Notes under the pieces: model-generated | Told to the model about the DNA's origin: nothing | The model's input: only the letters and a program-made list of their open reading frames with translations | The model's database searches: none | Shown: positions 33,532 through 54,742 of the stretch, one piece after another | Layout: every line of letters starts with the position of its first letter | Numbering within the stretch: position 1 is the stretch's first letter | Translations under genes and position numbers: made by a program | From: Candidatus Halocynthiibacter alkanivorans | GTDB taxonomy: Bacteria; Pseudomonadota; Alphaproteobacteria; Rhodobacterales; Rhodobacteraceae | Direction: 5' to 3' | Assembly (NCBI RefSeq): GCF_003333265.1 | Contig: NZ_QOLB01000089.1 | Location: 1-64,000 of the forward strand | DNA length: 64,000 nucleotides

Positions 33532-34905
33532 TCAGCCGGGCAACAGCCCCGCAAACAGGCCCATCCCCAGGGTGACAACTGCGCTCACGCCCCAGGCCAG
33601 ACGCAGCGCAGGGTGCAGATTTTCGCGGACCAGCGCGTCTTCCGCTGCAACCTCCTCTGCAGCCTGGTACATCGGTATGATCATGCGCAGATAGACCCCC
33701 AACGCCAGCACACTGCCCAGCACGCCAATGACCACCAGCCAGAGGAACCCCGCTTCAATCGCAGCGGCAAACAGATAGACCTTGCCGATAAATCCAAACA
33801 GCGGCGGGATGCCGGTCAGCGACAGCAGGAACAGCACCATCGCCACCCCGGCCACGGGCCGGCGCCGGCCAAATCCGCGCAGATCTTTCAGGTCTCGCCC
33901 CGCCACCATCACAATGGCAAAGGCGCCAAGGTTCATCGCCACATACGCGGCGCCAAAAACGATAATGCCAGGCAGGTCCTGATCACTGCGTCCCAGCGCG
34001 GCGATGCCCAGCATGAAATAACCCGACTGCGCCACGGAAGAATAGGCCAGCAGCCGCACCAGGTTCGTTTGCACCAGCGCCGCCAGATACCCGTAAGTCA
34101 TGGTCACCGCCGAGATCAGCGCGATGACCAGAGGCCAGCCGCTGTTCACCGGCAGATCCCGCAGCACCTGCGCAAAGGCGAAAATTGCTGCGATTTTGGT
34201 GATCACTGACAGGTAGGCGGCAACAGACACAGGCGCGCCGTCATAGGCGTCCGGCGCCCAGAAGTGGAACGGCACCAGGGCGGCTTTGTATCCCAGCCCG
34301 ACAATCACCGCGATCAGCCCGGCGATGGTCACCAGGGTGTTGCCATTCAACGCGCCCAGCTCCGAAAACAGGGTGGAACCGCTGCCACCAAACCAGAAGG
34401 TGATGCCATAGATCATCACCGATCCGGTGACAGCGCCATAGACCAGGTATTTCATGCCGGCCTCAGTGGCGTCGTCGTCGCCCGGAAAGGCCACCAGCGC
34501 AAAAGAACCCAGCCCGGTCAGCACCACGCCGAGCACCAGCAACATCATATCACCGCTGCCCGACAGCATCAGCGCGCCCAGGGTAACAAGGCAGATCAGC
34601 GCATAAACGCTGCCTTCGCGTTCCTTGCCCACCAGTTCCGCCCGCGCCATCAGCAAAGCCACCGCCGTGCCCGGCAGCAGGATCAGCTTGGCCCAGCCGC
34701 TCAGCATATCAATGCGGTAGGTGCCACCAAAGACGGTGGTCTCAGCCGTGAGCACCGGCAGCGTCAGCAGCGTTGCGGCGGCAAGGCCGCCAAGCCCCAG
34801 CACCAGCACCAGCCGGGGCAGGCGGGCCATCTCCGCCAGCATCATAAACACCACTGCCATCGACAGCGTCATCTCCGGGACCAGAAAGGCGAGATCGCGG
34901 CCCAT
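33532..34905 (-). CDS. nuoN: NuoN-like antiporter subunit of a complex I-like system
   Basis: This 457-residue inner-membrane protein has about 12-14 transmembrane segments and the NuoN/Mrp-antiporter family core: MKYLVYGAVTGSVMIYGITFWFGG (about 149-172), GLGYKAALVPFHFWAPDAYDGAPVSVAAYLS with the central channel Lys (about 203-233), and a second Lys in VITKIAA. Proton-channel residues are kept. It is the last gene of the cluster, overlapping nuoM by one base. It lacks a nuoC/E/F/G/I partner in the operon, so its electron-input module is not a standard complex I. Confidence 0.88.
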   Translation of the reverse strand: MGRDLAFLVPEMTLSMAVVFMMLAEMARLPRLVLVLGLGGLAAATLLTLPVLTAETTVFGGTYRIDMLSGWAKLILLPGTAVALLMARAELVGKEREGSVYALICLVTLGALMLSGSGDMMLLVLGVVLTGLGSFALVAFPGDDDATEAGMKYLVYGAVTGSVMIYGITFWFGGSGSTLFSELGALNGNTLVTIAGLIAVIVGLGYKAALVPFHFWAPDAYDGAPVSVAAYLSVITKIAAIFAFAQVLRDLPVNSGWPLVIALISAVTMTYGYLAALVQTNLVRLLAYSSVAQSGYFMLGIAALGRSDQDLPGIIVFGAAYVAMNLGAFAIVMVAGRDLKDLRGFGRRRPVAGVAMVLFLLSLTGIPPLFGFIGKVYLFAAAIEAGFLWLVVIGVLGSVLALGVYLRMIIPMYQAAEEVAAEDALVRENLHPALRLAWGVSAVVTLGMGLFAGLLPG

Positions 34906-36368
34906 CAGAACTTCAGGCTCGCCATAGTGGTGTGGATCATGTCAATCAGCCAGGACGGCGCGACCCCCACCAGCACGGTCAACAGCAACAGCGGCACCAC
35001 CGCCAGTTTTTCGCGCCGGTCCAGATCGGGCATGCCGGCCCATTTTTCATTGGGCTCACCCAGGAACACCCGGGCGATGGCGCGCAGATACAGCCCCGCA
35101 GTCACCACAATGGCCAGAATGGCGATGATCGCCCAGGGCTGGCTGTTCAGAGTGGCCAGGAAGACCTGAAATTCGGCCGGGAAATGCGCCAGCCCCGGCA
35201 GGCCAAGCGAGGCAAACGCCGAAATGATAAAGGCCCAGCCCAGCCAGGGCACCTGGCCCAGCAAACCGCCAAAATCGCCCATGTCGCGGCTGTGGGCGCG
35301 GTCCTGCAACATGCCCACCAGGAAGAACAGCGCGCCGGTGACCAGGCCGTGGCTGACCATCTGTAGCGTTGCGCCGTCCAGCGCCACAGTGCGGATGCGC
35401 GGGTCTGTGGACAGTGCCGCCACGGCGACGCCCATCACCACATAACCCATGTGGTTGACCGAGGTGTAAGCGATCATCTTTTTCAGATCCGTCTGCGCCA
35501 GCGCGGCAAAAGCACCGTAAATGGCGCTGGCCACGCCCAGCACCAGGATCACCACACCGGCTTTGGTAAAGGCCTCAGGCGTCATCTGCAGCGCGAACCT
35601 CACCAGGCCATAGGTGCCGAATTTCAGCATCACCCCGGCCAGGATCACACTGCCTGCTGTCGGCGCCTGTACGTGGGCGGCGGGCAGCCAGGTGTGCACC
35701 GGAAAGGCCGGGATCTTGACCGCAAAGCTGAACATCATCGCAATCAGCGCCAGCATGGCGGCAAGGCCGGTCAGCGGCGGCATATCGATCCAGGCCCGCA
35801 TGTCAAAAGTGCCACTGCTCAGATAAAAGCCGATGATGGCCAGCAACAGCGGCAATGAGCCCAGCAGCGTATAGAGGAAAAACATCAGGGCGGCGCGCTG
35901 GCGGTCTTCATAACCCCAGCCGGCGATCATGAAATACATCCCCACCAGCGAAACTTCAAAGAAGACGTAAAACAGCAACCCGTCCAGCGCCATGAATGTG
36001 CCGAGTGATGCGGTCTCCAGCATCAACATCAGCACCACATAGGTGGTGGCGCGCTCTTTGATGCGCGCCGAATAGATCGCCGAGAGGAAAAACAGCAGGG
36101 TGGTCAGCAGCACCAAAGGCAGGCTTAACCCGTCAAGCCCCAGCCGGTAGGCCGCACCAATGGCGGGGATCCAGGACAGTTCCTCGACCTGGGCAAAGGT
36201 GCCGGGCAGGATGCCCCGGGCCCAGATCGCGAGGCTGATCAGAAAGGTAAGTCCGGTGACGCCAATCGACAGCCCGTGCGCCAGACGCGCCGGGCGCTCT
36301 TTCAACGCCATAAGGATAAGACCGCCGGTGATCGGCAGGAAGGTCGCAATAGTCAGGAGCGGTAGCAC
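34905..36368 (-). CDS. nuoM: NuoM-like antiporter subunit of a complex I-like system
   Basis: This 487-residue membrane protein has about 14 transmembrane segments. Conserved channel residues are kept: the TM5 Glu in FFEVSLVGMYFMIAGWG (about residue 136), and the Lys residues in FAVKIPAFPVHTWLPAAHVQAPTAGSVILAGVMLKFG (about 217-253). By family it would translocate a proton or Na+. It lies 13 nt downstream of nuoL. Confidence 0.9.
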   Translation of the reverse strand: MLPLLTIATFLPITGGLILMALKERPARLAHGLSIGVTGLTFLISLAIWARGILPGTFAQVEELSWIPAIGAAYRLGLDGLSLPLVLLTTLLFFLSAIYSARIKERATTYVVLMLMLETASLGTFMALDGLLFYVFFEVSLVGMYFMIAGWGYEDRQRAALMFFLYTLLGSLPLLLAIIGFYLSSGTFDMRAWIDMPPLTGLAAMLALIAMMFSFAVKIPAFPVHTWLPAAHVQAPTAGSVILAGVMLKFGTYGLVRFALQMTPEAFTKAGVVILVLGVASAIYGAFAALAQTDLKKMIAYTSVNHMGYVVMGVAVAALSTDPRIRTVALDGATLQMVSHGLVTGALFFLVGMLQDRAHSRDMGDFGGLLGQVPWLGWAFIISAFASLGLPGLAHFPAEFQVFLATLNSQPWAIIAILAIVVTAGLYLRAIARVFLGEPNEKWAGMPDLDRREKLAVVPLLLLTVLVGVAPSWLIDMIHTTMASLKF

Positions 36369-36381
36369 AGGTCAGTTCTCC

Positions 36382-38202
36382 TCAGGAGTAAAACGGTGCG
36401 GCCAGCAACACCACTGCAATCAGCGCAATGCCAATCGCAGTCAGGGCCAGTTCACGATGGATAAAACCGCTTTGCAGGCGGCGGGCGCGGGCGCCGGTCT
36501 CAATGGTGCGACGCACCAGGCCAAAAATCATCTTGTCGATGCCGTCCATATCAGTGAGCCGGGCCAGCTGGCCCAGTGACAGGTTGATACGGCCAAAGGA
36601 CAGCACGGCATTATACAGCCATTGCTCTAAGCGTTCGCACAGCGCGGCAATCGCCAGCGCCGGGCGCAGTATCAGCCCGTCCATGCCACCAGAAAATTCA
36701 AAACCACGCGCTGCGGGCACGGCCAGCGGACCCAGCAGTTTCACAGGCGCGATGAACCAGCCGAGCAGTAACCCGCTGACGCCCGCGCTCAACCCCAGCA
36801 GAGGTGCCAGCAGACCGGGTTCAGCCAATTCGATATCCAGCAGCTCTTCCAGCGGGCCAAAACCTGCACCCAGAACTGCCGCCAGCAATGCCAGCACGCC
36901 AAAGCCAACTGCCATTTGCGGGATGCGGGACGGGGCAGGGCCCGCATCGCCATTCCACAGCATTTTTAACGCCCGGCCCATATAGGCCCCGGTCAGCACC
37001 GTGCCGCCCAATACCAGCGGCGCCAGCCACAGCATAGTGGGCCCGTCCAGAGTGGCGGCAATGATGGCGTCTTTAGAAAAGAACCCGGCCAGCGGCGGAA
37101 TGCCGGCCAGCGCCAGCGCCGAGATGGCAAAACCGGCAAAAATGCGCGGACGCGCCCGGCCAGCACCGGCCAGCGCCTCCATATCGGTGCTTTCGCGGTC
37201 GTGCTGAAACACTCCGGCACCAAGGAACAGCGAGCTTTTGATCGCCGCATGGGCAATCAGATGCAGCAGCGCCGCCACCGGCACGCCAGCACCAACCGCC
37301 GCCAGCATCAGCCCGTACTGGCTGGAGGTCGAGGCCGCCAGCATGCGTTTCAGGTCACGCTCGGCCAGCGCGATCAGCCCGGTGATCACCGCAGTCACCC
37401 CACCAACAATGCCGATCACCAGCATGGCGCCTGCGGGCAGCATCGGCGCAATACGGATCAACAGGATCGCGCCCGCCGCCACCAGGGTTGCCGAATGCAG
37501 CAGTGCAGACACCGGCGTCGGTCCGGCCATGGCGCGCTGCAACCAGTCCTGCAACGGAACCTGAGCTGACTTGCCCATCGCCGCCACCAGCAGCAGCAGC
37601 CCGGCAATCAGCGACGCGGTGCCGGTGGTGGTGAGTGTGACGGAAATTTCCGAGGTGCCCGCCAGCCCGATCAGCAGAAACGCCCCGATATAGAGCCCCA
37701 GATCAGCGCTGCGGGTGTACATAAAGGCGCGGGTGGCGGCACTGGCCACACCGGGCCGCTCATGCCAGAAACCGATCAGCAGATAACTGGCAAAACCGAT
37801 CATCTCCCAGGCGCCAAGCAGGGAGATCCAGTCGCCCGACAGCACCAGCAACTGCATCGCGGTGACAAACAACAACATAGTGCCAAAAAACCGCACCTTC
37901 TGCGGGTCTTTGCCCATGTAGCCAGTGGCATAAAGCAGCACAAACCCGGCCACCGTGGCGACCAGGGCGGACATCGCCGCCGTCAGCGGTGTTGCGATCA
38001 GCAACAGTGGCATATCGGGCAGGAAGGGCAGCACCAGCTGCGGTGCAACACCTTCAGCAGACGCGCCCGCCAGTTGCAGCAGCGCCGCAATAAGGCTGAC
38101 GCCGGCCCCCAGCAGGGCAATCAGCTCCGGCGCGCGCTTCAGGGCGAAAATCAGCAGCGCCGACAACAAAGGCGCCAGCAGGATCAGGCTCAGCATCATC
38201 AT
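36382..38202 (-). CDS. nuoL: NuoL-like antiporter subunit of a complex I-like system
   Basis: This 606-residue protein has the NuoL core with TM5 Glu in GAWEMIGFASYLLIGFW (about 131-147), TM7 Lys in MGKSAQVPLQDWLQRAMAGPTPVSALLHSATLVAAG, and the C-terminal channel region. The C-terminal part (about residues 480-606) corresponds to the lateral helix region of NuoL. It starts with three Met codons, overlaps nuoK by four bases and lies in the antisense-free order K-L-M-N of complex I. Channel residues are intact, so ion translocation is expected. Confidence 0.9.
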   Translation of the reverse strand: MMMLSLILLAPLLSALLIFALKRAPELIALLGAGVSLIAALLQLAGASAEGVAPQLVLPFLPDMPLLLIATPLTAAMSALVATVAGFVLLYATGYMGKDPQKVRFFGTMLLFVTAMQLLVLSGDWISLLGAWEMIGFASYLLIGFWHERPGVASAATRAFMYTRSADLGLYIGAFLLIGLAGTSEISVTLTTTGTASLIAGLLLLVAAMGKSAQVPLQDWLQRAMAGPTPVSALLHSATLVAAGAILLIRIAPMLPAGAMLVIGIVGGVTAVITGLIALAERDLKRMLAASTSSQYGLMLAAVGAGVPVAALLHLIAHAAIKSSLFLGAGVFQHDRESTDMEALAGAGRARPRIFAGFAISALALAGIPPLAGFFSKDAIIAATLDGPTMLWLAPLVLGGTVLTGAYMGRALKMLWNGDAGPAPSRIPQMAVGFGVLALLAAVLGAGFGPLEELLDIELAEPGLLAPLLGLSAGVSGLLLGWFIAPVKLLGPLAVPAARGFEFSGGMDGLILRPALAIAALCERLEQWLYNAVLSFGRINLSLGQLARLTDMDGIDKMIFGLVRRTIETGARARRLQSGFIHRELALTAIGIALIAVVLLAAPFYS

Positions 38203-38510
38203 CCCTTCAACTCGCGGGCTTCTTCCATCTCAACCGAGCCGCGCGACCGGAAGCGGGCAATGGCGATGCCAAATCCGACGGCCATTTCCACCGCCATCAC
38301 CGCCATGATGATCAGCACAAACATCTGCGCGGCAGGCTCTTCCGGATGCAGATAGCGCCAGAACGCCACCAGGTTGACCAAAGCAGCGGCCAGCACCAGC
38401 TCCACCCCCATGATGATCATCACCAGGTTGGTCTGGCTCAGCGCGCCATAAAGACCAACGCCAAACATCCCGGCGCCGACACTCAGCGCAATCAACAGCT
38501 CATAACTCAT
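38199..38510 (-). CDS. nuoK: NuoK-like subunit of a complex I-like system
   Basis: This 103-residue, three-helix membrane protein keeps the two buried Glu residues of NuoK (MGVELVLAAALVNLVAF, residue about 36; MAVEMAVGFGI, about 72). It overlaps nuoJ by four bases (ATGA). In complex I these Glu residues form part of the proton relay next to NuoJ and NuoL. Confidence 0.92.
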   Translation of the reverse strand: MSYELLIALSVGAGMFGVGLYGALSQTNLVMIIMGVELVLAAALVNLVAFWRYLHPEEPAAQMFVLIIMAVMAVEMAVGFGIAIARFRSRGSVEMEEARELKG

Positions 38511-39049
38511 GCGTCCTGCCCCTCACCTGCGTCCGGCCTTTTTTCAGGCACAATCGCCACCATAGTCGCGGCAACCATCGCAGTCAGAATGGTCAGACCC
38601 GCCGACTGAAAGATAAACATTGAACGCCCCAGCAATTCGCGGCCCAGCAGCACCACCTGCTCTGATGCATCGGGCACCGACATCGCCACCGGCCCCCATG
38701 TGCCGAACAGGATCACCGCCAGCGCCGCCACCAGACCCGTGCCCCCGGCCCAGAGCGACAGGCGTTTTTGGTGGGTCATCTCCATCGCGCCAAGCCCGCC
38801 GGGATCCATCATGAACATCACCATGAAGATCGCCATCACGCTCATTTCCGTCGCCATCATCATGATCTGCAACACACCCAGAAACTCGGCCTGCATCACC
38901 AGGAACATCACCCCGACTGCGGTCTGGGAAAACAACAATGCCAGCGCGGAACGCACCATCGAATGGGTGCGAAATACAATCACGCCGAACCAAACGGCGG
39001 CGATGCCAAAAAAGGCGAGAAAGAACATTTCTGCAGTTATAACAGTCAT
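38507..39049 (-). CDS. nuoJ: NuoJ-like subunit of a complex I-like system
   Basis: This 180-residue protein has five hydrophobic segments. The family motif region is LGVLQIMMMATEMSVMAIFMVMFMM (about 59-83), which corresponds to TM3 of NuoJ. It overlaps nuoH by four bases and nuoK by four bases. It lacks the usual long cytoplasmic extension. Confidence 0.85.
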   Translation of the reverse strand: MTVITAEMFFLAFFGIAAVWFGVIVFRTHSMVRSALALLFSQTAVGVMFLVMQAEFLGVLQIMMMATEMSVMAIFMVMFMMDPGGLGAMEMTHQKRLSLWAGGTGLVAALAVILFGTWGPVAMSVPDASEQVVLLGRELLGRSMFIFQSAGLTILTAMVAATMVAIVPEKRPDAGEGQDA

Positions 39050-39957
39050 ATCGGCACCACCAGCGCGATCACGCCCACCAGGAAAATATTAGACAGCGCC
39101 AGCGAAATACCCAGCTTCCAGCTGACCGCCAGATAACGTGCTTCGCGCACCCGGGGCACATGGCGCCCGGCAGTAAGCATCACCGCTGTGACGATGAGGA
39201 TCTTGATGCCGCTCCAGGCCCAGTCCGGTAGACTGGCAGCAAAACCAGGGCTCAGCCAGCCGCCAAAATAAAAGGTCACCGTCGCCCCCGCCATCACCAG
39301 GATGATGACCATGCGCGCCAGTCGCAGCACCGCCAGGCGCGCGCCGGTATATTCGGCCTCAACGCCACCGGCGAGATCCCCGGCGGCGGTGGGCAGATCC
39401 AGCGGTGGCAACCAGGCCAGACCCAGGGCTGCGACAAAGAACAATACAAAACCAATGGGCTGATAGAACACGTTCCACAGCTGCTCCTGCGATTCCACGA
39501 TGACAGTGGTCGACAGCGACTCTGCGCGCATCGCCACGGCGGTGATTGGCATCACGATCAGCATCGCATAGGCGATAAACTGACCCAGAAAGCGCCAGCC
39601 GCCGATCATCGCATAAGCGCCATCCGGCCCCCAGCCCGCCATGATCAGCGCCACCAGCACATAGGCCAGCGCTGCGTTCAGGAACAGCGCGCCAGTGGCC
39701 AGATCGGTGATGATCAGCCCCGGCGCCAACGGGATCACCGCCGCCGCCAGTACGCCAGCCACCAAAAGCAACACCGGCCCGGCTTCAAAAAACACCAGGT
39801 CATTCTTGCGCGTCAGCACGGATTCCCGCCCAAAAAACGCCAGCGCCGAATACAGCGGCCGGCTCAGGCTAAAGCGCCGGTGCACAGTCCAGCCCTCCAG
39901 CACAGCAATGAAATAGGCGCCGGCGGACAGCGCCATCAGGATAAGAAAGATGTTCAT
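39046..39957 (-). CDS. nuoH: Divergent NuoH-like subunit of a complex I-like system
   Basis: This 303-residue membrane protein has eight hydrophobic segments and is a clear NuoH/HycD-family member: AFFGRESVLTRKNDLVFFEAGPVLLL, then LPPLDLPTAAGDLAGGVEAEYTGARLAVLRLA. In complex I the loop after DLP reads EAE and lines the quinone cavity; here it is TAA, while the downstream E-x-E-Y-T/S-G is kept. This suggests altered quinone-site chemistry. It overlaps the fusion gene upstream by four bases. Confidence 0.87.
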   Translation of the reverse strand: MNIFLILMALSAGAYFIAVLEGWTVHRRFSLSRPLYSALAFFGRESVLTRKNDLVFFEAGPVLLLVAGVLAAAVIPLAPGLIITDLATGALFLNAALAYVLVALIMAGWGPDGAYAMIGGWRFLGQFIAYAMLIVMPITAVAMRAESLSTTVIVESQEQLWNVFYQPIGFVLFFVAALGLAWLPPLDLPTAAGDLAGGVEAEYTGARLAVLRLARMVIILVMAGATVTFYFGGWLSPGFAASLPDWAWSGIKILIVTAVMLTAGRHVPRVREARYLAVSWKLGISLALSNIFLVGVIALVVPI

Positions 39958-42371
39958 GCCGGGGCTCCCCAGGGGTCAAGGTCCAGGGAGGCAACCGCCA
40001 CCAGGGCGTCGGCCAGTTCCATCTGATGTGTCAGATCACCAACACGCGCCAGCAGCGCTGCCGAGGGGGTGACCAGGCTGGCTTCTGTGATCTTGCCGCC
40101 ATCAAGGCGCAGGCTCAGCGTCGCGGCCCCGCGTGGCGTCTCAACCACAGCAGAGCCGTGGGCGGAAACCGCGTCAAAACCCGAACTCTGCGGCAGGCTG
40201 AGCGTGCCGGCCCGCGCAATCAGCCCAAAGCTCTGAATAATCTCGTCACAGCGCAGCGTCAGCCGCGCCATCGCGTCGCCCTCACTGCCGCTGATCAGTG
40301 AAAAACCAAGCCGCTGATACAGAGGATCATCCTGGCGCGCGTCTGTCGCAATACCGGCGGCGCGGGCCACCGGACCGCTGAACGGGCTGGCATCGTCAAA
40401 CCGGCCAATTGACACCAGCTTGCTGCGCAACATCGGCGTGCGCTGCACCTTGCGCAGCAACTTTGTTACCGCGCCGCTCTGGCGGGCAATTTCATTTGTC
40501 GAAGCCTTGCGCAGCGCCAGCTGCAACTTGCCGGCACGCCGCTCCAGGGCAATCAGCCCGCTCTGGCCGGCGAATGTCGCGATCCAGCCCAGATGGCTGC
40601 AAATGCGTTCCCGCTCCACCGCCGCGACATGCGCCGTCGCCAGATCGTCCGCGATACCGACACCCGCAGCGTTTTGCAGCGCCAAAGACACCAGCTGACC
40701 CATTGCCACCGGGCTCAGCGGTGTCTGCGCCGCCAGACTGTCCGAAAACTCCGCGGGCGCCATGCCGTGCTCAGGCAGCTCAAGCGCAGTACCGGCAAGA
40801 CCCTGTGCCTGCGCCGCCGCGACCGTATCCCCGTCAAGGGTGAGGCTCAGGCCCAGCCCGCCGGGCAGCCCGGGGAAAAACGGCCCGAACGGCACATCGA
40901 TCCATTCCATTTTCAGCCCGTCCGGGCTTACCGGCATGTCTTTGGTCAGATCCACCATCGACATAAAACCCGGTTCAATCCCGTCGATCTGTTCCGCCGC
41001 AGTACCATGGCCGCCGTGGCCGCCGTGCTCACTGTGGGCGCCATGCGCTGAGTGCTCATCGTGGCCGCCGGGGTCGTCAGCAGCTGCGGGCTCCACCTCC
41101 ACCAGGAACATGCCGCATTTGGGGCAGGACCCGGGCGCATCGCTGACCACTTCCGGATGCATTGGGCAGGTGTAAGTCGCCGCCGCGTGCGCGCCGTGGT
41201 CGTCACCGCTTGAGGAACCGGCCTCAACCAGGGTCATGCCGCATTTCGGGCAATTTCCAGGCGTATCGCTGACCACTTCGGGGTGCATCGGGCAGGTATA
41301 CTGCACCACCGCTTTGTCGTCCTGGCCGTGCGAGCTATGGCCGTGGCCACTATGCCCGTGGCCGTCATGGGATGGAGCCTCGTGTTTATGAGCCTCGTGT
41401 TTATGCGCGTCGTGCTCCGCGTGGTCGGCTTTTCCGTGCCCGTCATGGGGGCTGTGGCCCCCGTGCCCATGCCCGCCGTGCCGATGCTCCGCGGCATCTG
41501 CGCCAGGTTTGACCAGGGTCATGCCACATTTCGGGCAATTTCCAGGCGTGTCGCTGACCACTTCGGGGTGCATCGGACAGCTGTAGGGCGGTTTGGCCGT
41601 GCGGTGCTTGTGGGCATCACTATGGCTGGCCAGTGGGAGCGCAGCATGGCGGCCCTGGTCCCCGTGGCCGCCATGGCCGCCATGGCCTCCGTGATCATCG
41701 GCATGATTTCCGCGATTGTTCTGAGCAGAGATGCCGTGACCGAGGCTGCTTTGCCCTTCGGCCGCATCTTCAGACCCGTGTGAGGCCGTTGCCCCATGTC
41801 CGGCTGAGGCATGGCCATCATGGCCGCCGACCGCGGTTTCACGCGGCACCAGTGTCATGCCGCATTTTGGGCAGGCGCCAGGTTCATCCCGGATCACTTC
41901 CGGATGCATCGGACAGGTGAATTCAATGCGGACTTGCAGCGCCGGCGCGTCAAAATCAACGATATCTGCGCCAAACGCGCCCGCTTTGACAAGCTCGCGC
42001 AGCTGCGTGAGCGCGCGGATCAGCCCTGCCTGAGACAGATCGCCCGTCACATCCGCCACGGGCAGCGACGCCAGGTCACCGGCGTCCAGCGCCAGGATCG
42101 CGCGGGGCCGTGGCATCTGGGCATAGGCAACCGTAGCCGCATCGCGCAGCCCTTTGGGCAGTGGCCCGAGGATCAGCAGCACGCTGGCGTGGCGTGGCGT
42201 TGCAGCCAGGCGCAGCCCGGCACCGGCGAGATCCAGCCCCGATGCACGTGCCACATCCGGCCCCGGTACCACCAGCGCGGTAAGATCCTGTGCCATAGCG
42301 GCCGCGACCAGCCGCCGCAAACCATTCATCGCGCCCGTGCGTGCGCCCTGCATCACGGCCACCTTCATCAT
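39954..42371 (-). CDS. NuoB-like / four HMBD / NuoD-like fusion protein
   Basis: This 805-residue protein has four parts. Residues 1-145 resemble NuoB (LAATPRHASVLLILGPLPKG; YAQMPRPRAILAL) but contain no cysteine, so the tetranuclear Fe-S cluster N2 cannot form. Residues 150-425 carry four heavy-metal-binding motifs, each CPMHPEV…CPKCGM (Cys153/167/170, 265/279/282, 360/374/377, 402/416/419), joined by His/Gly/Asp-rich linkers. Residues 465-805 resemble NuoD and group-4 hydrogenase large subunits (ERERICSHLGW; GPVARAAGI; EGDAMARLTLRCDEI; VETPRGAATLSLRL). The GPxHP start motif is GPFFPG and the terminal DPCxxC is DLDPWG, so Ni and quinone ligands are lost. No NuoC, E, F, G or I accompanies it. 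Confidence 0.9.
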   Translation of the reverse strand: MMKVAVMQGARTGAMNGLRRLVAAAMAQDLTALVVPGPDVARASGLDLAGAGLRLAATPRHASVLLILGPLPKGLRDAATVAYAQMPRPRAILALDAGDLASLPVADVTGDLSQAGLIRALTQLRELVKAGAFGADIVDFDAPALQVRIEFTCPMHPEVIRDEPGACPKCGMTLVPRETAVGGHDGHASAGHGATASHGSEDAAEGQSSLGHGISAQNNRGNHADDHGGHGGHGGHGDQGRHAALPLASHSDAHKHRTAKPPYSCPMHPEVVSDTPGNCPKCGMTLVKPGADAAEHRHGGHGHGGHSPHDGHGKADHAEHDAHKHEAHKHEAPSHDGHGHSGHGHSSHGQDDKAVVQYTCPMHPEVVSDTPGNCPKCGMTLVEAGSSSGDDHGAHAAATYTCPMHPEVVSDAPGSCPKCGMFLVEVEPAAADDPGGHDEHSAHGAHSEHGGHGGHGTAAEQIDGIEPGFMSMVDLTKDMPVSPDGLKMEWIDVPFGPFFPGLPGGLGLSLTLDGDTVAAAQAQGLAGTALELPEHGMAPAEFSDSLAAQTPLSPVAMGQLVSLALQNAAGVGIADDLATAHVAAVERERICSHLGWIATFAGQSGLIALERRAGKLQLALRKASTNEIARQSGAVTKLLRKVQRTPMLRSKLVSIGRFDDASPFSGPVARAAGIATDARQDDPLYQRLGFSLISGSEGDAMARLTLRCDEIIQSFGLIARAGTLSLPQSSGFDAVSAHGSAVVETPRGAATLSLRLDGGKITEASLVTPSAALLARVGDLTHQMELADALVAVASLDLDPWGAPA

Positions 42372-42730
42372 TGCCGCCTCAACGCGCCCTGGCTCCAGCC
42401 ATAGGCCAGCCCCAGGAACAGGATTGCCAGAAACACACCCATATCGAGCAGCGCCACCAGGCCTTCTTCGCGGTAGACCACCGACCAGGGGTACATAAAG
42501 GCCATCTCCATATCAAAGGCGAGGAACAGCAGCGCGTAGCCGTAATATTTGGCGTGATAACGCACCCAGACCGGATCGCGCGCCAGGGTGCCTGCGGTGG
42601 CGGGCACATCTTTACCGGGCTCTGCGCGGCTGCGGCCGATGACACGGGCCAGCCCATAAAGGGTAAAAACGAAACCGACGGTGCCCAAGGTGAGCGCCAA
42701 CAGGATCGCATATTGCGGGAGAGCAGCCAT
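42368..42730 (-). CDS. nuoA: Divergent NuoA-like subunit of a complex I-like system
   Basis: This 120-residue, three-helix protein starts MAALPQYAILLALTLGTVG and has the NuoA second-helix signature RYHAKYYGYALLFLAFDMEMAFMYPWS, with the conserved acidic residue pair kept. The PYECG-type loop motif of complex I is absent; that loop normally closes the quinone channel. The ATG at 42730 is chosen because an earlier ATG at 42775 adds 15 non-hydrophobic residues. It overlaps the fusion gene by a few bases and is the first gene of the operon. Confidence 0.85.
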   Translation of the reverse strand: MAALPQYAILLALTLGTVGFVFTLYGLARVIGRSRAEPGKDVPATAGTLARDPVWVRYHAKYYGYALLFLAFDMEMAFMYPWSVVYREEGLVALLDMGVFLAILFLGLAYGWSQGALRRQ

Positions 42731-46091: not shown

Positions 46092-47123
46092 CTAGCGCCC
46101 GTTGGGCGCCGCCAGCCGGTTGACCACGGACTGGGCGGTGACCTCGCCGACAATCGCACCGCTTTCGAGCACCGACACCGGGTGGCCGCTGTCCTGCAAT
46201 GTGGTCATGATGTCCTTAATCGGTGTATCCGGCGCCACGGTAATACCGTGTTCTACGCTGCCCGGCGTCATCACATCACAGGCGCGCAACACCCCGAGAG
46301 GGTTCATATGGGCGACAAAATCGGCGACATATTCATCTGCCGGATTGGAGAATATCTCCTCTGGCGTGCCACACTGCACGATGCGCCCGCCCTCCATAAT
46401 CGCAATGCGGTCGCCCAGTTTAAACGCCTCATCCAGATCGTGGCTGACAAAGATGATGGTGCGTTTCAGCTTGCGCTGCAGGTCCAGAAGCTCGTCCTGC
46501 AGCTTGGTGCGGATCAGCGGATCCAGCGCCGAAAACGGCTCGTCCATCAACAGGATCGGCGCCTCAGTGGCAAAGGCGCGCGCCAGGCCCACCCGCTGCT
46601 GCATACCGCCCGACAGTTCGCCCACTTTGCGCTCGGACCATTCAGAGAGGCCGACCAGCGCCAGCTGCGCGTCAATCTTGGCGTTGCGCTCGGCCTTCGC
46701 CATGCCAGCAAGCTCCAGCCCCAGGCCCGCGTTTTCGCGCACCGTGCGCCAGGGCAGCAGACCAAATTGCTGGAACACCATGGCGATGCGGTGCTGGCGC
46801 ATATTGCGCAACACGGCGGGTGCCGCATCGGTGACATTGACCAGCCCCTCACTGCCGTTCTTCACCCTCACGGCACCACGTACCACCGGGTTCAGCCCGT
46901 TGACCGCGCGCAGCAGGGTGGATTTGCCCGAGCCGGACAGGCCCATCAGCACCAGGATCTCGCCTTCGCCCACATTCAGCGAGCAATTGTGCACCCCCAG
47001 CACCTGGCTGGTTTCCTGCTGTATCTCAGTGCGGGTCTTATTCGCGTCCATCAGGGGCAGGGCGATCTTTGGTTTGTCGCCGAATACGATGGAGACATTG
47101 TCAAATTCTACTGCGTTGACCAT
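46092..47123 (-). CDS. choV: Choline ABC transporter ATP-binding protein
   Basis: This 343-residue ATPase has Walker A GLSGSGKST (about residue 61), the signature LSGGMQQR, and Walker B ILLMDEPFSALDP, followed by a C-terminal CBS-like segment (TVAPDTPIKDIMTTLQDSGHPVSVLESGAIVGEVTAQ). This is the ProV/OpuAA glycine betaine/choline class. Operon partners choW and choX and the adjacent betIBA genes support choline as substrate. It lies 2 nt downstream of choW. Confidence 0.88.
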   Translation of the reverse strand: MVNAVEFDNVSIVFGDKPKIALPLMDANKTRTEIQQETSQVLGVHNCSLNVGEGEILVLMGLSGSGKSTLLRAVNGLNPVVRGAVRVKNGSEGLVNVTDAAPAVLRNMRQHRIAMVFQQFGLLPWRTVRENAGLGLELAGMAKAERNAKIDAQLALVGLSEWSERKVGELSGGMQQRVGLARAFATEAPILLMDEPFSALDPLIRTKLQDELLDLQRKLKRTIIFVSHDLDEAFKLGDRIAIMEGGRIVQCGTPEEIFSNPADEYVADFVAHMNPLGVLRACDVMTPGSVEHGITVAPDTPIKDIMTTLQDSGHPVSVLESGAIVGEVTAQSVVNRLAAPNGR

Positions 47124-47125
47124 TT

Positions 47126-47956
47126 TCAGCGCTCCACTCTCAGGATCCGGTCCAGCATGATGGCGACCACCACGATGACCAGCCCGCTTTCAAAACCCAG
47201 CGCCGCGTTGACCTGGCTCAGGGCGCGTACCACCGGCACACCCAGCCCGTCAGCCCCGACCAGAGCCGCGATCACCACCATCGACAGCGACAGCATGATG
47301 GTCTGGTTCAGCCCGGCCATAATTTGCGGCATCGCATAAGGCAATTCCACTTTCCACAGGGTCTGGGACGGGGTGGAGCCAAAGGCTTCGGCCGCTTCCA
47401 GCAGTGGTTTGGGCGTCGCGCTGACACCAAGATAGGTCAGCCGGATCGGCGCCGGCACCACAAAGATCACCGTGGCGACGAGGCCCGGCACCATGCCAAT
47501 GCCAAAAAAGACGATCATCGGGATCAGATAAACAAAGGTCGGCAGCGTCTGCATCAGGTCAAGCACCGGGCTCATCGCGCTGTAAAGTCGCGGGCGGTGT
47601 GCTGCCGCAATGCCAATCGGCACCCCGATCGCCATACAGGTGAAGCCGGCAAAGGCCACCAGCGTCAGGCTCTCCATCGTCTCTTCCCAATAGCCCTGAT
47701 TGATGATGAACAGGAAGCCGAGCAAGACCAGCAGGCAGGGTTTCCAGTTCTTCTGAATCTTCCAGGTCAGTGCCACAAACAGCGCCACAATGATCAGGGG
47801 GCTGGGATATTGCAGAATGGTCAGCACAGTTTCAATCAACCAGCTCAACCCGTCTTCAAAACTTTCGAAAAACCACTCGGCATTGTCCCGCAACCATTCA
47901 AAAATGGATTTGGCGGCTTTGCCAACCGGGATTTTGCTGCCTGTTAACCAGTCCAT
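47126..47956 (-). CDS. choW: Choline ABC transporter permease
   Basis: This 276-residue inner-membrane permease has about six hydrophobic segments and the EAA loop LEAAEAFGSTPSQTLWKVELPYAMPQI. It matches ProW/ChoW members in length and has the family's long N-terminal cytoplasmic stretch (residues 1-45). It is the second gene of the choXWV operon. Confidence 0.88.
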   Translation of the reverse strand: MDWLTGSKIPVGKAAKSIFEWLRDNAEWFFESFEDGLSWLIETVLTILQYPSPLIIVALFVALTWKIQKNWKPCLLVLLGFLFIINQGYWEETMESLTLVAFAGFTCMAIGVPIGIAAAHRPRLYSAMSPVLDLMQTLPTFVYLIPMIVFFGIGMVPGLVATVIFVVPAPIRLTYLGVSATPKPLLEAAEAFGSTPSQTLWKVELPYAMPQIMAGLNQTIMLSLSMVVIAALVGADGLGVPVVRALSQVNAALGFESGLVIVVVAIMLDRILRVER

Positions 47957-48012
47957 ATCTGCCTCACGTGCCCGACGGCACGCCCCCCTCAGTCGTCACA
48001 AAATAGAATTGA

Positions 48013-48031
48013 CCCCGGCATTGAACCGGGG
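48013..48031 (-). other. Stem-loop between choX and choW
   Basis: CCCCGG (48013-48018) pairs with CCGGGG (48026-48031) in the 90-nt gap after the binding-protein stop codon. Such a stem-loop often stabilises the upstream message and lowers downstream permease expression relative to the binding protein. Confidence 0.5.
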
Positions 48032-48046
48032 CCAGCAAGTGTTTTA

Positions 48047-48967
48047 TTATTTGGCAAGCTCGGCCATAACCGCAGCCTTTGCATCGCCACCGTCAGTGGT
48101 GGTGACGCCGTTCAACCAGGGCATAACGGCATTCATGTTGCCCTTGAGCCATTGGCGGGCCGCAAAGTCAGCATCGTCGCCGTCGTTCAGGATCGCACCC
48201 ATGATTTCGTTTTCCATCGCCAGGGTGAACTCAAGGTTCTTCAGCAGCGCACCGACATTGGCGCATTCATCGACATAACCGGCGCGGGTGTTGGTATAGA
48301 CATCCCCCTCGGCGCCAAACCACTCTTCGCCACCGGTCAGATAGGTGACGGCAAAGTTGGAGTTCATCGGATGGGGCGCCCAGCCAAGGAAAACAACGGG
48401 TTTGTCTTTGCGCGATGCACGATCGACCTGAGCCAGCATGCCCTGCTCAGAACTTTCGACCATCTCGACAGCGCCGAGACCAAACGTATCGGCCGAGATC
48501 AGATCCATCACGATACGGTTGCCGTCGTTGCCGGCTTCAATGCCGTAAACCTTGCCACCGAGCGCATCTGCATTGGCGGCAATATCCGCGAATGTTTTGA
48601 TGCCAAGCGCCGCACCGGCCGCATTGGTCGCCAGCGTATAGGCGGTGCCGTTCAGGTTGGCGCGCACTGTGTCAACGGTGCCGGCTTCGCGGTATTTGGC
48701 GATATCGCCTTCCATAGTGGGCATCCAGTTGCCGAGGAATACGTCCACGTCACCCTGTTCCAGCGAGATATAAGTCACCGGCACCGAAAGAACTTTGATG
48801 TTGGTCTCATAGCCAAGCGCTTCCAGCACGATCGACGTGGCCGCGGTGGTGGCTGTGATGTCAGTCCAGCCCACATCGGCAAAAGTCACTTCGGAACAAT
48901 CGGCGGCGGCAAAGGCGGGGCTCGCGATGGCAGCAGCCAGCGCGGCGGAAATCAGAGTCTTTTTCAT
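48047..48967 (-). CDS. choX: Choline/glycine betaine-type periplasmic binding protein
   Basis: This 306-residue binding protein has a signal peptide (LISAALAAAIASPAFAAADC, cleavage near residue 21) and the ProX/OpuAC fold: DVGWTDITATTAATSIVLEALGY, GDVDVFLGNWMPTMEGD (the usual aromatic-cage region, Trp of NWMP) and VVFLGWAPHPMNSNFAVTYLTGG. It is divergent from betI across an 80-bp gap with a BetI-like operator. Choline binding is inferred from the bet gene context. Confidence 0.85.
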   Translation of the reverse strand: MKKTLISAALAAAIASPAFAAADCSEVTFADVGWTDITATTAATSIVLEALGYETNIKVLSVPVTYISLEQGDVDVFLGNWMPTMEGDIAKYREAGTVDTVRANLNGTAYTLATNAAGAALGIKTFADIAANADALGGKVYGIEAGNDGNRIVMDLISADTFGLGAVEMVESSEQGMLAQVDRASRKDKPVVFLGWAPHPMNSNFAVTYLTGGEEWFGAEGDVYTNTRAGYVDECANVGALLKNLEFTLAMENEIMGAILNDGDDADFAARQWLKGNMNAVMPWLNGVTTTDGGDAKAAVMAELAK

Positions 48968-48986
48968 TAATTAGCTCCCTGTTTTA

Positions 48987-49006
48987 TTGATTGACGAGTC
49001 AATCAA
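48987..49006. promoter_or_regulatory. BetI-type operator palindrome
   Basis: TTGATTGAC and GTCAATCAA form a perfect 9-bp inverted repeat around a GA spacer, midway between the divergent choX (start 48967) and betI (start 49048). The size and position fit a TetR-family BetI dimer binding site that would control both the choline importer and the bet genes. Confidence 0.75.
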
Positions 49007-49047
49007 AAGGGGTTTAGCCTCTATTTGCAAGAAAAAAAGGAAACGCA

Positions 49048-49692
49048 TTGCCAAAAGTTGGGATGGAACCAATCCGCAAGGAGGCTCTGGTCCGCGCCAC
49101 GATCGAAGAAATCGGGCGTGCGGGCTCCCTTGATGTGACTGTGGCCCAGATCGCCAAACGGGCCGGCATGTCCTCAGCGCTGGCCCATCACTACTTTGGC
49201 GGCAAGGATCAGATCTTTCTGGCGGCGATGCGACATGTACTGTCTGTTTACGGCGCTCAGGTGCGTGCCGCCCTTGCTGCAGCCGATACGCCGCGCCAGC
49301 GGGTGGAGGCGGTGATCCGCAGCAACTTTGAACCGCCCAACTTCCGCCCCGAGGTGATTTCCGCCTGGCTGTCCTTCTATGTGCTGGCCCAGACCAGAAC
49401 CCCGGCGCGGCGCCTGTTGCGGGTCTATCAGAACCGCCTGCATTCCACTCTGTTGTTTGATCTGCGCCAGCTGATCGGAGAGCGCTCGGATGCGGCCGCG
49501 ACCGGTATCGCGGCGATGATCGACGGCCACTATATCCGCCACGCGCTGCATGACGCACCGCCCAACCCCCTCGAGGCCACCGCGTCGGTGCTGGACTACC
49601 TTGACCTGGTGCTGAGCCGTGACGCCACTGCTGACGGCGACGGCGACGGCAACGGCCTGTGTGGCCGCGACCGCGTGCCCCTGAAACAGTGA
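49048..49692 (+). CDS. betI: BetI-type TetR repressor of choline metabolism
   Basis: This 214-residue regulator has a TetR helix-turn-helix (VTVAQIAKRAGMSSALAHHYFGGKDQIF, about residues 30-57) and a BetI-type ligand domain (NFEPPNFRPEVISAWLSFYVLA). The N-terminus MPKVGMEPIRKEAL aligns with E. coli BetI (MPKLGMQSIR…), which supports the TTG start at 49048; AAGGA lies 7 nt upstream. Choline would relieve repression. It heads betIBA and is divergent from choXWV. Confidence 0.9.
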   Translation: MPKVGMEPIRKEALVRATIEEIGRAGSLDVTVAQIAKRAGMSSALAHHYFGGKDQIFLAAMRHVLSVYGAQVRAALAAADTPRQRVEAVIRSNFEPPNFRPEVISAWLSFYVLAQTRTPARRLLRVYQNRLHSTLLFDLRQLIGERSDAAATGIAAMIDGHYIRHALHDAPPNPLEATASVLDYLDLVLSRDATADGDGDGNGLCGRDRVPLKQ

Positions 49693-49825
49693 TGCGTGTC
49701 AGCCGTTACCCCGATCTGACCGGATCAGAATATAAACTACTGTGCCGCACAGGCGCAGCTCCGCTCCCGCCATATTCCGCAATAGTAACCCCCGCAGGGG
49801 GCTGCCTTTTCTCCCGAGGTGAAAG

Positions 49826-51277
49826 ATGAAAGCTCAACCCACAGCCAGCCACTTTATCAATGGTGCTTATATTGAGGACACCGCCGGCACGCCGATCGAT
49901 GTGATCTATGCGGCAGATGGTGAACTCATTGCCCGGGTGCATTCCGCCACCGCTGCCATTGTGGACCAGGCGCTGAACGCCGCCAAAGCCGGGCAAAAGA
50001 TCTGGGCCGCAAAGTCCGGTGTGGAACGTGGCCGGGTGCTGCGCCGCGCCGCCGATCTCATTCGCGAGCGCAACCACGAGCTTTCGGTTCTGGAAACGCT
50101 GGACACCGGCAAACCGCTGCAGGAAACCCTGGTCGCCGACGCCACGTCCGGCGCCGAGTCGCTGGAATATTTCGGCGGTCTCGCGGCCACTCTGGGCGGC
50201 GAACACATCCAGGTTGGCGAAGATTTTGTCTACACCCGCCGCGAAGCGCTGGGCGTCTGTGTGGGCATCGGTGCCTGGAACTACCCAACCCAGATCGCCT
50301 GCTGGAAAGCCTCCCCGGCGCTGGCCTGCGGCAACTCCATGGTGTTCAAACCGTCCGAAACCACCCCGCTCTGCGCCCTGAAAATCGCCGAGATCTTTAT
50401 TGAGGCTGGCCTGCCAGCGGGTGTGTTCAACGTCATCCAGGGGCTCGGTGATGTCGGTGCCAGCCTGGTGACTGATGCGCGCGTCGCCAAAGTCTCGCTC
50501 ACCGGATCGGTGCCCACCGGACGCAAAGTCTACGCGGCGGCGGCCGATACAATGAAACATGTCACCATGGAGTTGGGCGGCAAATCCCCGCTGATCATCT
50601 TTGAAGACGCCAACCTGGAAGACGCCATTTCCGGCGCCATCAACGCCAACTTCTACTCCTCCGGCCAGGTCTGCTCCAACGGCACCCGGGTGTTCGTGCA
50701 TGCCGATATCAAAGAGGCGTTTCTGACACGGCTCGCGGAACGCATGCAGGGCGCGGTGATCGGCGATCCGATGGATGAGGCCACCAATTTTGGCCCGATG
50801 ATCAACGCACGTCAGCTTGAGATCACCGAGAAATACATCGCCGCCGGCAAAGCCGAAGGCGCCCGCCTGATCTGTGGCGGCGACCGGGTCGACCGCCCAG
50901 GCAACTACATCACGCCTGCGGTGTTTGCCGATGTGACGGATGACATGACCATCGCCCGCGAAGAAGTCTTTGGCCCGCTGATGTCGGTGCTCGATTTCAC
51001 CGATGAGGACGAAGTGATCGCCCGCGCCAATGACACCGAATTTGGCCTCGCCGCCGGGGTCTTCACCCGCGACCTGACCCGGGGCCACCGCGTTGTCGGC
51101 AAGCTCGAAGCCGGCTCGACCTGGATCAACCAGTACAACCTGACCCCGGTTGAAACGCCCTTTGGTGGTTCCAAAATGTCCGGCGTCGGACGCGAAAACG
51201 GCCAGGTGGCGATCAACCACTGGTCAGAACTGAAAACCGTCTACGTGGGCATGACCCCCGTCGAAGCCGCGTTCTGA
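49826..51277 (+). CDS. betB: Betaine-aldehyde dehydrogenase
   Basis: This 483-residue NAD(P)+-dependent enzyme oxidises betaine aldehyde to glycine betaine. It has the catalytic Glu ([16 protein letters not shown], about residue 249) and the active-site Cys ([15 protein letters not shown], about 283). The length and motifs match bacterial BetB. It lies between betI and betA. Confidence 0.9.
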
Positions 51278-51284
51278 GGACAAT

Positions 51285-52943
51285 ATGGAAGCAGATTTTG
51301 TAATCGTCGGCGCCGGCTCTGCCGGCTGCGCCATGGCCTACCGTCTTTCTGAGGCGGGCCATTCTGTCATCGTCATCGAATATGGCGGCACCGATGCTGG
51401 TCCCTTCATCCAGATGCCCGCCGCGCTCAGCTATCCGATGAATATGTCGCTTTATGACTGGGGGCTGAAATCAGAACCCGAAGAACATCTCGGCGACCGC
51501 GAACTGGTGGTGCCGCGCGGCAAAGTGGTCGGCGGCTCCTCCTCGATCAACGGCATGGTCTATGTGCGTGGCCATGCGCGCGACTATGACCACTGGGCCG
51601 AGCAGGGGGCCGATGGCTGGTCCTATGCCGATGTGCTGCCCTATTTCAAACGCCAGGAAAGCTGGCATGAAAGCGGCCAGGGCGGCGACCCTGACTGGCG
51701 CGGCAAATCCGGCCCGCTGCATATCACCCGTGGCCCGCGCAACAACCCGCTGCACGCCGCTTTTGTCGAAGCCGGTCAACAGGCGGGTTATCCGGTCACC
51801 GACGATTACAACGGCGAACAACAGGAAGGCTTCGGCCCAATGGAGCAGACGGTCTATCAGGGCCGACGCTGGTCTGCGGCCACCGCCTATCTGAAACCGG
51901 CACTAAAGCGGGACAATTGCACCCTGATCCGGGGTCTGGCGCGCAAAGTGGTGATTAAAGACGGTCGCGCCACAGGCGTGGAAATCAAACGCAAGGGCAA
52001 GATCGAGGTGATCTCCGCCAAACGCGAAGTGATCCTCGCTGCTTCCTCGCTGAACTCACCGAAACTGCTGATGCTCTCAGGCATCGGCCCGGCAGCACAC
52101 CTGGCAGAACACGGAATTGAGGTGGTCGCCGACCGCCCCGGTGTGGGCCAGAACCTGCAGGACCATCTTGAAGTCTATATGCAGTTCGCCTCCAAACAGC
52201 CGATCACGCTGTATAAATACTGGAACCTGTTCGGCAAAGCGATGATCGGCGCGCAGTGGCTGTTCACCAAAACCGGTCTCGGGACGTCCAACCAGTTTGA
52301 AAGCGCCGCCTTTATCCGCTCGCGCAAAGGCATTGAGTACCCGGATATCCAGTATCACTTCCTGCCGATCGCGGTGCGCTATGACGGCAAAGTCTCTGCC
52401 GAAGGGCACGGCTTCCAGGCGCATGTCGGTCCGATGCGCTCACCTTCCCGTGGCGAGGTGACACTGAAATCCGCCAATCCCGAAGACGCGCCGCGCATCA
52501 AGTTCAACTATATGTCGACGGAACAGGACTGGATTGATTTCCGCAAATGCCTGCGCCTGACCCGCGAGATCTTTGAACAGGAAGCCTTTGCGCCCTACGT
52601 GAAACACGAGATCCAGCCAGGCAAAGCGCTGCAAACGGATGAAGAACTCGACAGCTTCATCCGCGAACATGCCGAAAGCGCGTTCCACCCCTGTGGTACG
52701 GCGCGCATGGGGCGCACTGACGATCCGATGGCGGTGGTCGATCCGGAATGCCGGGTGATCGGGGTCGAAGGGCTGCGGCTCGCCGACAGTTCAATCTTCC
52801 CGCGCATTCCCAACGGCAACCTGAACGGGCCTTCGATCATGGTTGGGGAAAAAGCCTCGGACCATATTCTCGGCAAAGCGCCTCTGGCCGCCGCCAATGA
52901 CGCGCCCTGGATCAACCCGGACTGGCAAGACAGCCAACGTTAA
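51285..52943 (+). CDS. betA: Choline dehydrogenase (GMC oxidoreductase)
   Basis: This 552-residue flavoprotein has the N-terminal Rossmann motif [16 protein letters not shown] (about 5-20), the GMC signature 1 [24 protein letters not shown] (about 73-96), signature 2 in [23 protein letters not shown], and the catalytic His region [10 protein letters not shown]. It oxidises choline to betaine aldehyde at the membrane. With BetB it makes glycine betaine. A terminator follows 23 nt after the stop codon. Confidence 0.92.
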
Positions 52944-54729: not shown

Positions 54730-54742
54730 GGGGGCTTGAGCA

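Follow-up and report, generated by a model that had tools for sequence, protein, structure and literature searches.

The way in which the head of complex I communicates with its proton channels is still to be explained, and several described systems resemble parts of the operon described here. In Mrp, a cation path has been proposed through the NuoJ-like and NuoK-like parts, with the key glutamate E706 at the site of the NuoJ tyrosine of complex I, and at the point where cation and proton movements are coupled the MrpD counterpart of the glutamate in transmembrane helix 5 (TM5) of NuoN is a key residue (PMC7419157, in the sections of that article drawn on here). In Marinobacter atlanticus, a nuoADHJKL cassette lies inside a copper-resistance operon and is more highly expressed together with the copper genes, and the authors suggested that copper redox might supply energy (Eddie et al. 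2021, PMC8233155, likewise in part). Nuo sets borne on plasmids are noted in a survey of complex I from 2025, whose text has 0 occurrences of either heavy metal or copper (PMC12361115). Here we describe an operon from a stretch of 64,000 nucleotides of Candidatus Halocynthiibacter alkanivorans (contig NZ_QOLB01000089.1, positions 1 to 64,000), referred to throughout as the window. The unit runs nuoA-fusion-nuoH-J-K-L-M-N on the minus strand and ends at position 33532. Its fused head protein joins a NuoB-like part, four heavy-metal-binding domains (HMBDs) and a NuoD-like part, its NuoA, NuoJ and NuoK are rich in methionine, and its product may be concerned with the handling of Cu(I).

Comparison with the described systems provides insights on what is particular to this locus. 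With respiratory complex I (NDH-1) the operon shares the order A-(B..D)-H-J-K-L-M-N, the protein families, most of the antiporter lysines and glutamates and the NuoK glutamate pair, whereas it has no N2 cysteines, no quinone-side motifs and no NuoC, NuoE, NuoF, NuoG or NuoI annotated in the flanks examined, its B and D parts are fused, and its A, J and K subunits are methionine-rich. Subunits of NuoJ, NuoK, NuoL and NuoN type are common to the operon and Mrp; unlike Mrp, it has no MrpE, MrpF or MrpG, presents methionine in place of the carboxylate and histidine cation ligands of Mrp, and includes NuoH, NuoA and the B-D head. The head resembles the group 4 membrane-bound hydrogenases and MBS (6cfw, 6u8y) in that MbhJ is found among the best profile matches of its N-domain and the MBS large subunit among its fold matches, but it has neither NiFe nor Fe-S ligands. 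The HMBD (PF19335) occurs in P-type ATPases and CusB-like proteins; the CPMHPEV...CPKCGM motif is the same, whereas here one to five copies of it lie inside a NuoB-NuoD fusion. The Marinobacter cassette also consists of complex-I-like genes without an NADH module, beside and co-expressed with copper genes, but is reported without nuoM and nuoN; its kinship with the present family is likely. The sections of PMC8233155 drawn on make no mention of the fusion, the HMBD or the methionine pattern, and 'heavy metal' occurs 0 times in that text. Nor did literature searches in an open-access library find a paper that describes any of these three features.

A fused head beside a complete membrane arm

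The head gene, read as an open reading frame (ORF) of 805 residues with an ATG start (39954 to 42371, on the minus strand like all genes of the operon), overlaps nuoA on its upstream side and nuoH on its downstream side. Residues 1-150 (41922 to 42371) form a NuoB-like domain that is devoid of cysteine. The four HMBDs follow at residues about 151-177 (41841 to 41921), about 262-288 (41508 to 41588), about 358-384 (41220 to 41300) and 400-426 (41094 to 41174); the CPMHP...CPKC motif of the first three was read in the sequence, and the fourth is the best PF19335 stretch. An FMSMV motif identified in the head alignment (40953 to 40967) stands ahead of the NuoD-like domain (39957 to 40919), where GPFFPGLPGG replaces GPxHPxxHG.

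Searches with Pfam and NCBIfam models, profiles and folds agree on this composition. PF19335 matches the head in its four stretches with an E-value of 1.4e-57 and 191.7 bits, compared with a Pfam cut-off of 23.6, and PF00346 (NuoD) matches with an E-value of 1.1e-15. The single sequence matches NuoB weakly (PF01058, E 0.056; PRK06411, E 0.0016, far under the cut-off), but when a profile of 14 N-domain rows is used, MbhJ/NuoB chains of the PDB are matched at 2.6e-10 for the best one (over ~55 positions). The corresponding 13-row profile of the C-domain finds NdhH/NuoD chains (best 1.8e-22). As far as sequence comparison goes, the profiles settle the homology of the two flanks to NuoB and NuoD. 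The AlphaFold model of the head is weak (mean predicted local distance difference test score, pLDDT, 47.4), and its best PDB fold matches are still NuoD-type large subunits (MBS 6u8y_L, 2.2e-9). In agreement with the original prediction, which was made from the letters of the window alone, the protein thus combines a NuoB-like domain free of cysteine, four HMBD motifs and a NuoD-like domain without GPxHP, and the model and profile searches bear out all three parts.

The aligned N-domain segments retain the SPRxAxV..QxPxPR block of NuoB while the NuoB cysteines are gone. Residues 1-150 of the window head contain 0 cysteines, 14 relatives have 0-2 scattered ones, and MbhJ Cys102 lies opposite a position where the block ends and the consensus has no cysteine. 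GPxHP is found in none of the 15 heads checked (the window and 14 relatives); in the C-domain profile GPfFpgl stands opposite GPHHPSM of NdhH. No CxxC occurs outside the HMBDs in these 15 heads, the single flagged case (L035) being the CRVC of its second HMBD. The NuoD of ordinary complex I is also without the NiFe cysteines, so the missing DPCxxC is not unusual.

The other seven genes, A, H, J, K, L, M and N, are all matched by Pfam/NCBIfam models and make up the complete membrane set of complex I. The nuoA-like gene (42368 to 42730; PF00507, 1.3e-24), whose start is an internal ATG picked to match the length of relatives, encodes FDMEMAFMYPW where aligned canonical sequences are FDLEIAFLFPW-like. 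In the nuoH-like gene (39046 to 39957; PF00146, 6.5e-50) the RxGP loop is absent. The nuoJ-like gene (38507 to 39049; PF00499, 4.9e-18) presents a methionine-rich third transmembrane helix (TM3) and next loop at residues 63-91 (MMMATEMSVMAIFMVMFMMDPGGLGAMEM; 38777 to 38863), as defined by alignment and column counts. NuoK (38199 to 38510; PF00420, 4.4e-19) keeps E37 and E75 and has gained M31, M69, M72 and M76. Of the three antiporter subunits, NuoL (36382 to 38202; PF00361, 1.3e-57) and NuoM (34905 to 36368; TIGR01972, 4.4e-144) keep their key glutamates and lysines, and NuoN (33532 to 34905; PF00361, 4e-57) keeps its lysine, with valine or leucine for the TM5 glutamate.

Relatives of two types

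A tblastn search of plasmids with the C-domain gives 19 records at 1e-5. Twelve of these, all annotated as heavy metal-binding domain-containing protein, have at least 80% query cover and 46-54% identity. The nine examined (two from Paracoccus, one from Roseovarius, two from Rubrobacter, one each from Nitratireductor and Thioclava, two from Sulfitobacter) all carry nuoA-fusion-nuoHJKLMN, with the nuoH of Rubrobacter marinus annotated beside a small extra piece. We call this arrangement type I. Genome contigs of Jannaschia, Pelagivirga and Sulfitobacter provide five more type I loci, of which L024 and L028 are truncated where their contigs end. The HMBD count per type I head is 1 to 5. The fusion beside nuoA/H/J-N, for which a genome search had been suggested, therefore exists in nine plasmids and further loci. 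The suspicion that a frame error had created it did not materialize: the reading frame is conserved in independent genomes, and recurrence of the same fusion in many of them rules out a sequencing error or a chance fusion.

A search with the Halomonas head reveals a second type (type II; 8 plasmid records, 5 of which were examined). Type II heads (Halomonas, Roseivivax and Acuticoccus) are about 300-440 residues long, have no HMBD and carry a GGxGMMGGxPYGRPMAM motif, in which R replaces Y in one additional genome. M470, in the FMSMV motif of the window head, does not vary among the 16 heads aligned and falls opposite the last part of GMMGGxPYGRPMAM. The Roseivivax and Acuticoccus heads have lost the greater part of the NuoD helix bundle. 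The shortest heads (L040, 12001-12906; L041, 11980-12966) keep the NuoB part, the methionine motif and the first NuoD strands and mostly drop the helical NuoD core. In a NuoM tree, type I (27 rows, support 100/99) and type II (10 rows, support 98/100) each form a supported group of their own; the tree, which comes with a long-branch warning, does not resolve how they relate to canonical NuoM, and the row C_L060, whose branch is very long, is apparently an antiporter ORF picked in error. The two types are deeply split. The methionines in NuoA, NuoJ and NuoK and the loss of quinone-side motifs and of NuoH glutamates are common to both, and their common features lie mostly in the membrane.

Because the B-D head of type II has no HMBD, these domains are not the essential part. 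The original prediction had proposed that a metal-responsive or metal-redox head replaces the peripheral arm of complex I. Of that arm, indeed, a NuoB/NuoD fusion with soft-metal motifs is all that is left, next to a full AHJKLMN set. A metal-redox head as the essential part is not supported, since the sister type has such an operon with no HMBD in it and since neither NuoD nor NuoH retains its quinone-side motifs.

A DNA pattern for the NuoJ methionines was matched against four overlapping genome sets. In the family set 19 of 394 genomes contain it, in the class set 1 of 385, which is the window's own genome, in the phylum set 9 of 398, and in the set for the order to which G1042 belongs 5 of 244; the reversed control pattern gives no match. 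Columns were checked in 24 further genomes with this pattern, leaving out the window and G1306. Heads were recovered as 15 with HMBDs and 8 HMBD-free, with none from G295. The NuoB part was read in 10 of the 15 HMBD heads (the ORF of G073 has 908 residues); three heads are cut by contig ends (G179, G329, G288) and one is broken by masked bases (G1089). Carriers on plasmids belong to the Alphaproteobacteria, the Gammaproteobacteria and the Actinomycetota.

Other searches and loci gave the following observations. The C-domain search of the source genome and 60 relatives produced weak matches in 24 of the 60, and the three examined (L006, L009, L012) were rejected as ordinary NuoD or hydrogenase-like. 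In two of these, L009 (G040) and L012 (G012), a NuoD/hydrogenase-like large subunit is followed by a NuoB-like ORF with cysteines, which resembles a group 4-type complex. Exact inverted repeats are present upstream of nuoA in some loci, and no common operator was found family-wide. On plasmid pMM259 of Martelella mediterranea (L042, 11681-14248) an HMBD-free operon is broken after a shortened head, with an adjoining ISL3 transposase; no H-N genes are annotated there, and cueR and a heavy-metal ATPase are still present. Plasmid p2 of Paracoccus sediminicola (L029, 9158-9706) has, apart from its complete operon, a NuoN-like fragment with 75% identity to the window NuoN over 141 residues, perhaps the remnant of a second operon copy. 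The plasmid of Halomonas sp. KO116 (L033, 21436-28453) has egtB/egtD (ergothioneine) and formate dehydrogenase genes after the operon.

Methionines gained and ligands lost

We compared the methionine content of 16 operons, the window and 15 loci (the short, broken or unreadable L027, L028, L034 and L042 were excluded), with that of 14 canonical operons, one of the source genome and 13 of its family or class (L045 yielded none). The second complex I of the source genome (L043/L060) was kept outside the control set. The methionine fraction is 0.111 in NuoJ compared with 0.045 in the canonical subunit, and 0.088 in NuoK compared with 0.043 (16 operons against 13-14), and in both cases the ranges do not overlap. 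For NuoA the values are 0.045 (n=15) and 0.021, with only three canonical sequences. The fractions in H, L, M and N are not above canonical, and the J and K subunits of the second complex I, at 0.037 and 0.040, are not raised either. This second, ordinary complex I lies on contig C118 with an odd gene order, D, A, N, M and L close together.

The same distribution is seen in columns conserved to at least 90%. Methionine occupies 13 of 50 such columns in NuoJ compared with 4 of 64 in canonical NuoJ, 22 of 124 compared with 6 of 169 in A, J and K together, and 13 of 445 compared with 28 of 680 in H, L, M and N. At the 13 NuoJ positions the canonical rows never have methionine in ten, have it in 6/14 rows in one and always have it in two. 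Since related sequences are not independent, p-values for this enrichment are descriptive. Among the further genomes, M89, M91 and M94 of NuoA are present in 20/20 (NuoA was found in 20 of the 24), M31, M69 and M72 of NuoK in 24/24 and M76 in 23/24, and M31, M89, M91 and M144 of NuoJ in 24/24. All of these columns lie outside the search pattern, while the TM3 columns and Glu68 hold by construction in those genomes. In TM3 of NuoJ, M65 is present in 16/16 operons where the canonical residue is tyrosine in 14/14; by alignment offset this position corresponds to Y59 of E. coli. One turn past M65 there is a new glutamate, Glu68, also in 16/16.

Methionine is a ligand of Cu(I) and Ag(I) in known copper transporters, and DabAB is another complex-I-type arm without a redox head. 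The operon could be an arm whose substrate is an alkali cation or no metal at all, with Na+, K+ or CO2-type coupling like that of Mrp or DabAB, and in which methionine is oxidation-proof packing under copper stress, a reading for which Mrp shows that arms of this kind exist (PMC7419157, in the sections used). It is distinctly improbable, as the methionine gain is limited to A, J and K with no rise in H, L, M and N, and as type I heads contain HMBDs.

The quinone side of the operon's own subunits is dismantled, to judge from their motifs. The RxGP loop of NuoH is present in 0 of 40 family members (those whose NuoH N-terminus is on the contig) and in 14 of 14 canonical sequences; in the second complex I of the source genome it takes the variant form RPGPMRVG, which the strict pattern misses. 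Glutamate at window positions 131, 180 and 215 of NuoH (Arg/Lys there) is likewise found in 0/40 family members and 14/14 canonical ones, with position 202 kept. The family keeps the NuoK glutamate pair, the acidic pair of NuoA (Asp or Glu at 88, Glu at 90), the key glutamates and lysines of NuoL and NuoM, and the NuoN lysine, of which the one at 237 is absent in one further genome. No NuoC, NuoE, NuoF, NuoG or NuoI is annotated in the flanks of 13 plasmid copies, for which the PLSDB gene tables are incomplete. The methionine pattern, the RxGP loss and the loss of NuoH glutamates had formed no part of the original prediction.

These losses bear on two readings that retain electron transfer. 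A copper-redox-driven ion pump, powered by Cu(I)/Cu(II) chemistry within the head or beside it as Eddie et al. suggested for the Marinobacter cassette, could draw on the report of a nuoADHJKL cassette in, and expressed with, a copper-resistance operon (PMC8233155, in part). The HMBD and methionine sites could also hold copper. With the N2 ligands, GPxHP and the RxGP loop all absent, however, there is no recognizable electron acceptor site, type II does without the HMBD, and its shortest heads retain little of the NuoD helix bundle. Cu(I)/Cu(II) and ubiquinone are separated by a small difference in potential, and we regard such a pump as rather improbable. A quinone- or NADH-linked oxidoreductase that draws the subunits it lacks from the genome's two copies of ordinary complex I would be in keeping with the two ordinary NuoD genes found there besides the head fusion. 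But the subunits that the operon does encode have lost their quinone and Fe-S ligands, and the eight-gene unit occurs in all 9 examined type I plasmids, so that this outcome would be very surprising.

Copper genes nearby and the proposed function

Copper-named genes or a heavy-metal P-type ATPase are present in the flanks of 11 of 13 annotated plasmid copies (14 plasmid loci were examined; L034 is without usable annotation, and the 13 include the broken copy L042). One of them (L037) counts by its ATPase alone, and the flanks of L029 and L036 have no copper-named gene or heavy-metal ATPase annotated. In Roseivivax, in Acuticoccus and at the broken copy of Martelella, CueR adjoins the HMBD-free operon or lies close to it. 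On large contigs, tblastn matches of at least 38% identity to a Cu ATPase, multicopper oxidase or Cop proteins are found at 6 of 9 sites compared with 0 of 9 control stretches, taken from the same contigs 250-400 kb away; any match is found at 8/9 and 1/9, respectively. All 14 further sites with at least 35 kb give 10 at this level of identity, 6 of these by an ATPase alone. As the queries come from the neighborhoods of the same family, this result is support and not proof.

A methionine at the Mrp E706 site, a new glutamate one turn on, a helix filled with methionine and methionine-flanked glutamates in NuoK and NuoA favor the handling of Cu(I). Our preferred reading, to which we give a little less than an even chance, is that the operon encodes a non-redox, complex-I-derived, proton-coupled Cu(I)-handling machine, perhaps an antiporter of Cu(I) and H+. 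It would be a membrane machine with the shape of complex I that has given up NADH/quinone chemistry. The fused NuoB-HMBD-NuoD head, on the cytoplasmic side, would be a docking and metal-loading cap with His/Cys/Met sites. In the NuoA/J/K sector, which is the E-channel region of complex I and the cation path in Mrp, invariant methionines lie beside conserved glutamates, and a soft monovalent metal may be bound or passed there, for which Cu(I) (or Ag(I)) is the likeliest candidate. Coupling of this metal to proton movement through L, M and N would allow Cu(I) export driven by the proton-motive force in metal-loaded cells, an outward direction that we infer from the efflux and oxidase neighbors. 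A true copper pump, in which the E-channel subunits NuoA/J/K provide a Met/Glu path for Cu(I) that is fed by the head and driven by protons via NuoL/M/N, is possible but somewhat doubtful.

The same anatomy and neighborhood would suit a metal-gated or metal-sensing proton machine, in which copper at the head and methionine sites opens, closes or tunes proton flow through L, M and N and is not itself transported, for instance sparing the proton-motive force or cytoplasmic pH under copper stress. An HMBD number of 1-5, and sometimes 0, is what a sensing or buffering add-on might show. But invariant methionines deep in TM3 of NuoJ and in NuoK exceed the needs of a cytoplasmic sensor, and we hold gating to be unlikely, if a serious contender.

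Several observations count against the handling of Cu(I). The glutamate of NuoN TM5, present in all 13 canonical rows, is replaced by valine or leucine in 38 of 39 family members, which argues against a straight copy of the Mrp coupling. The eight conserved TM3 methionines do not lie on one helix face (R=0.28, p=0.39), and only five of them, picked after the fact, cluster on one face; a one-face methionine 'ladder' in NuoJ was therefore rejected as lacking statistical support. The NuoA of the second complex I, with a methionine fraction of 0.035, falls within the range of the family (0.030-0.101). The models of NuoJ (mean pLDDT 59.5) and of the head are both weak. As to the neighborhood, the 38% identity line was drawn after the matches were known, and three of the six positive large-contig sites (G116, G396, G231) owe their place to a P-type ATPase alone, whose assignment to copper is putative. 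Within 20 kb of the window copy, tblastn gives no copper match except an RND pump 23% identical to CusA.

The genomic setting of the window copy differs from that of the plasmid copies. Judged by eye, a cluster for betaine/choline transport and oxidation adjoins the operon (46092-52943), and the RND pump, of 1010 residues, forms an efflux pair with an adaptor (53647-57775).

The family offers a natural arm without redox and quinone parts that keeps most antiporter residues. It could show if cation movement in the E-channel region alone can drive protons, or be driven by them, as has been proposed for Mrp. If copper is the cation, the operon would be a new kind of metal-resistance machine, borne on plasmids. 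If the copper pump is real, it would constitute a class of heavy-metal transporter unlike the P-type ATPases, RND and CDF pumps, and one that is carried between phyla.

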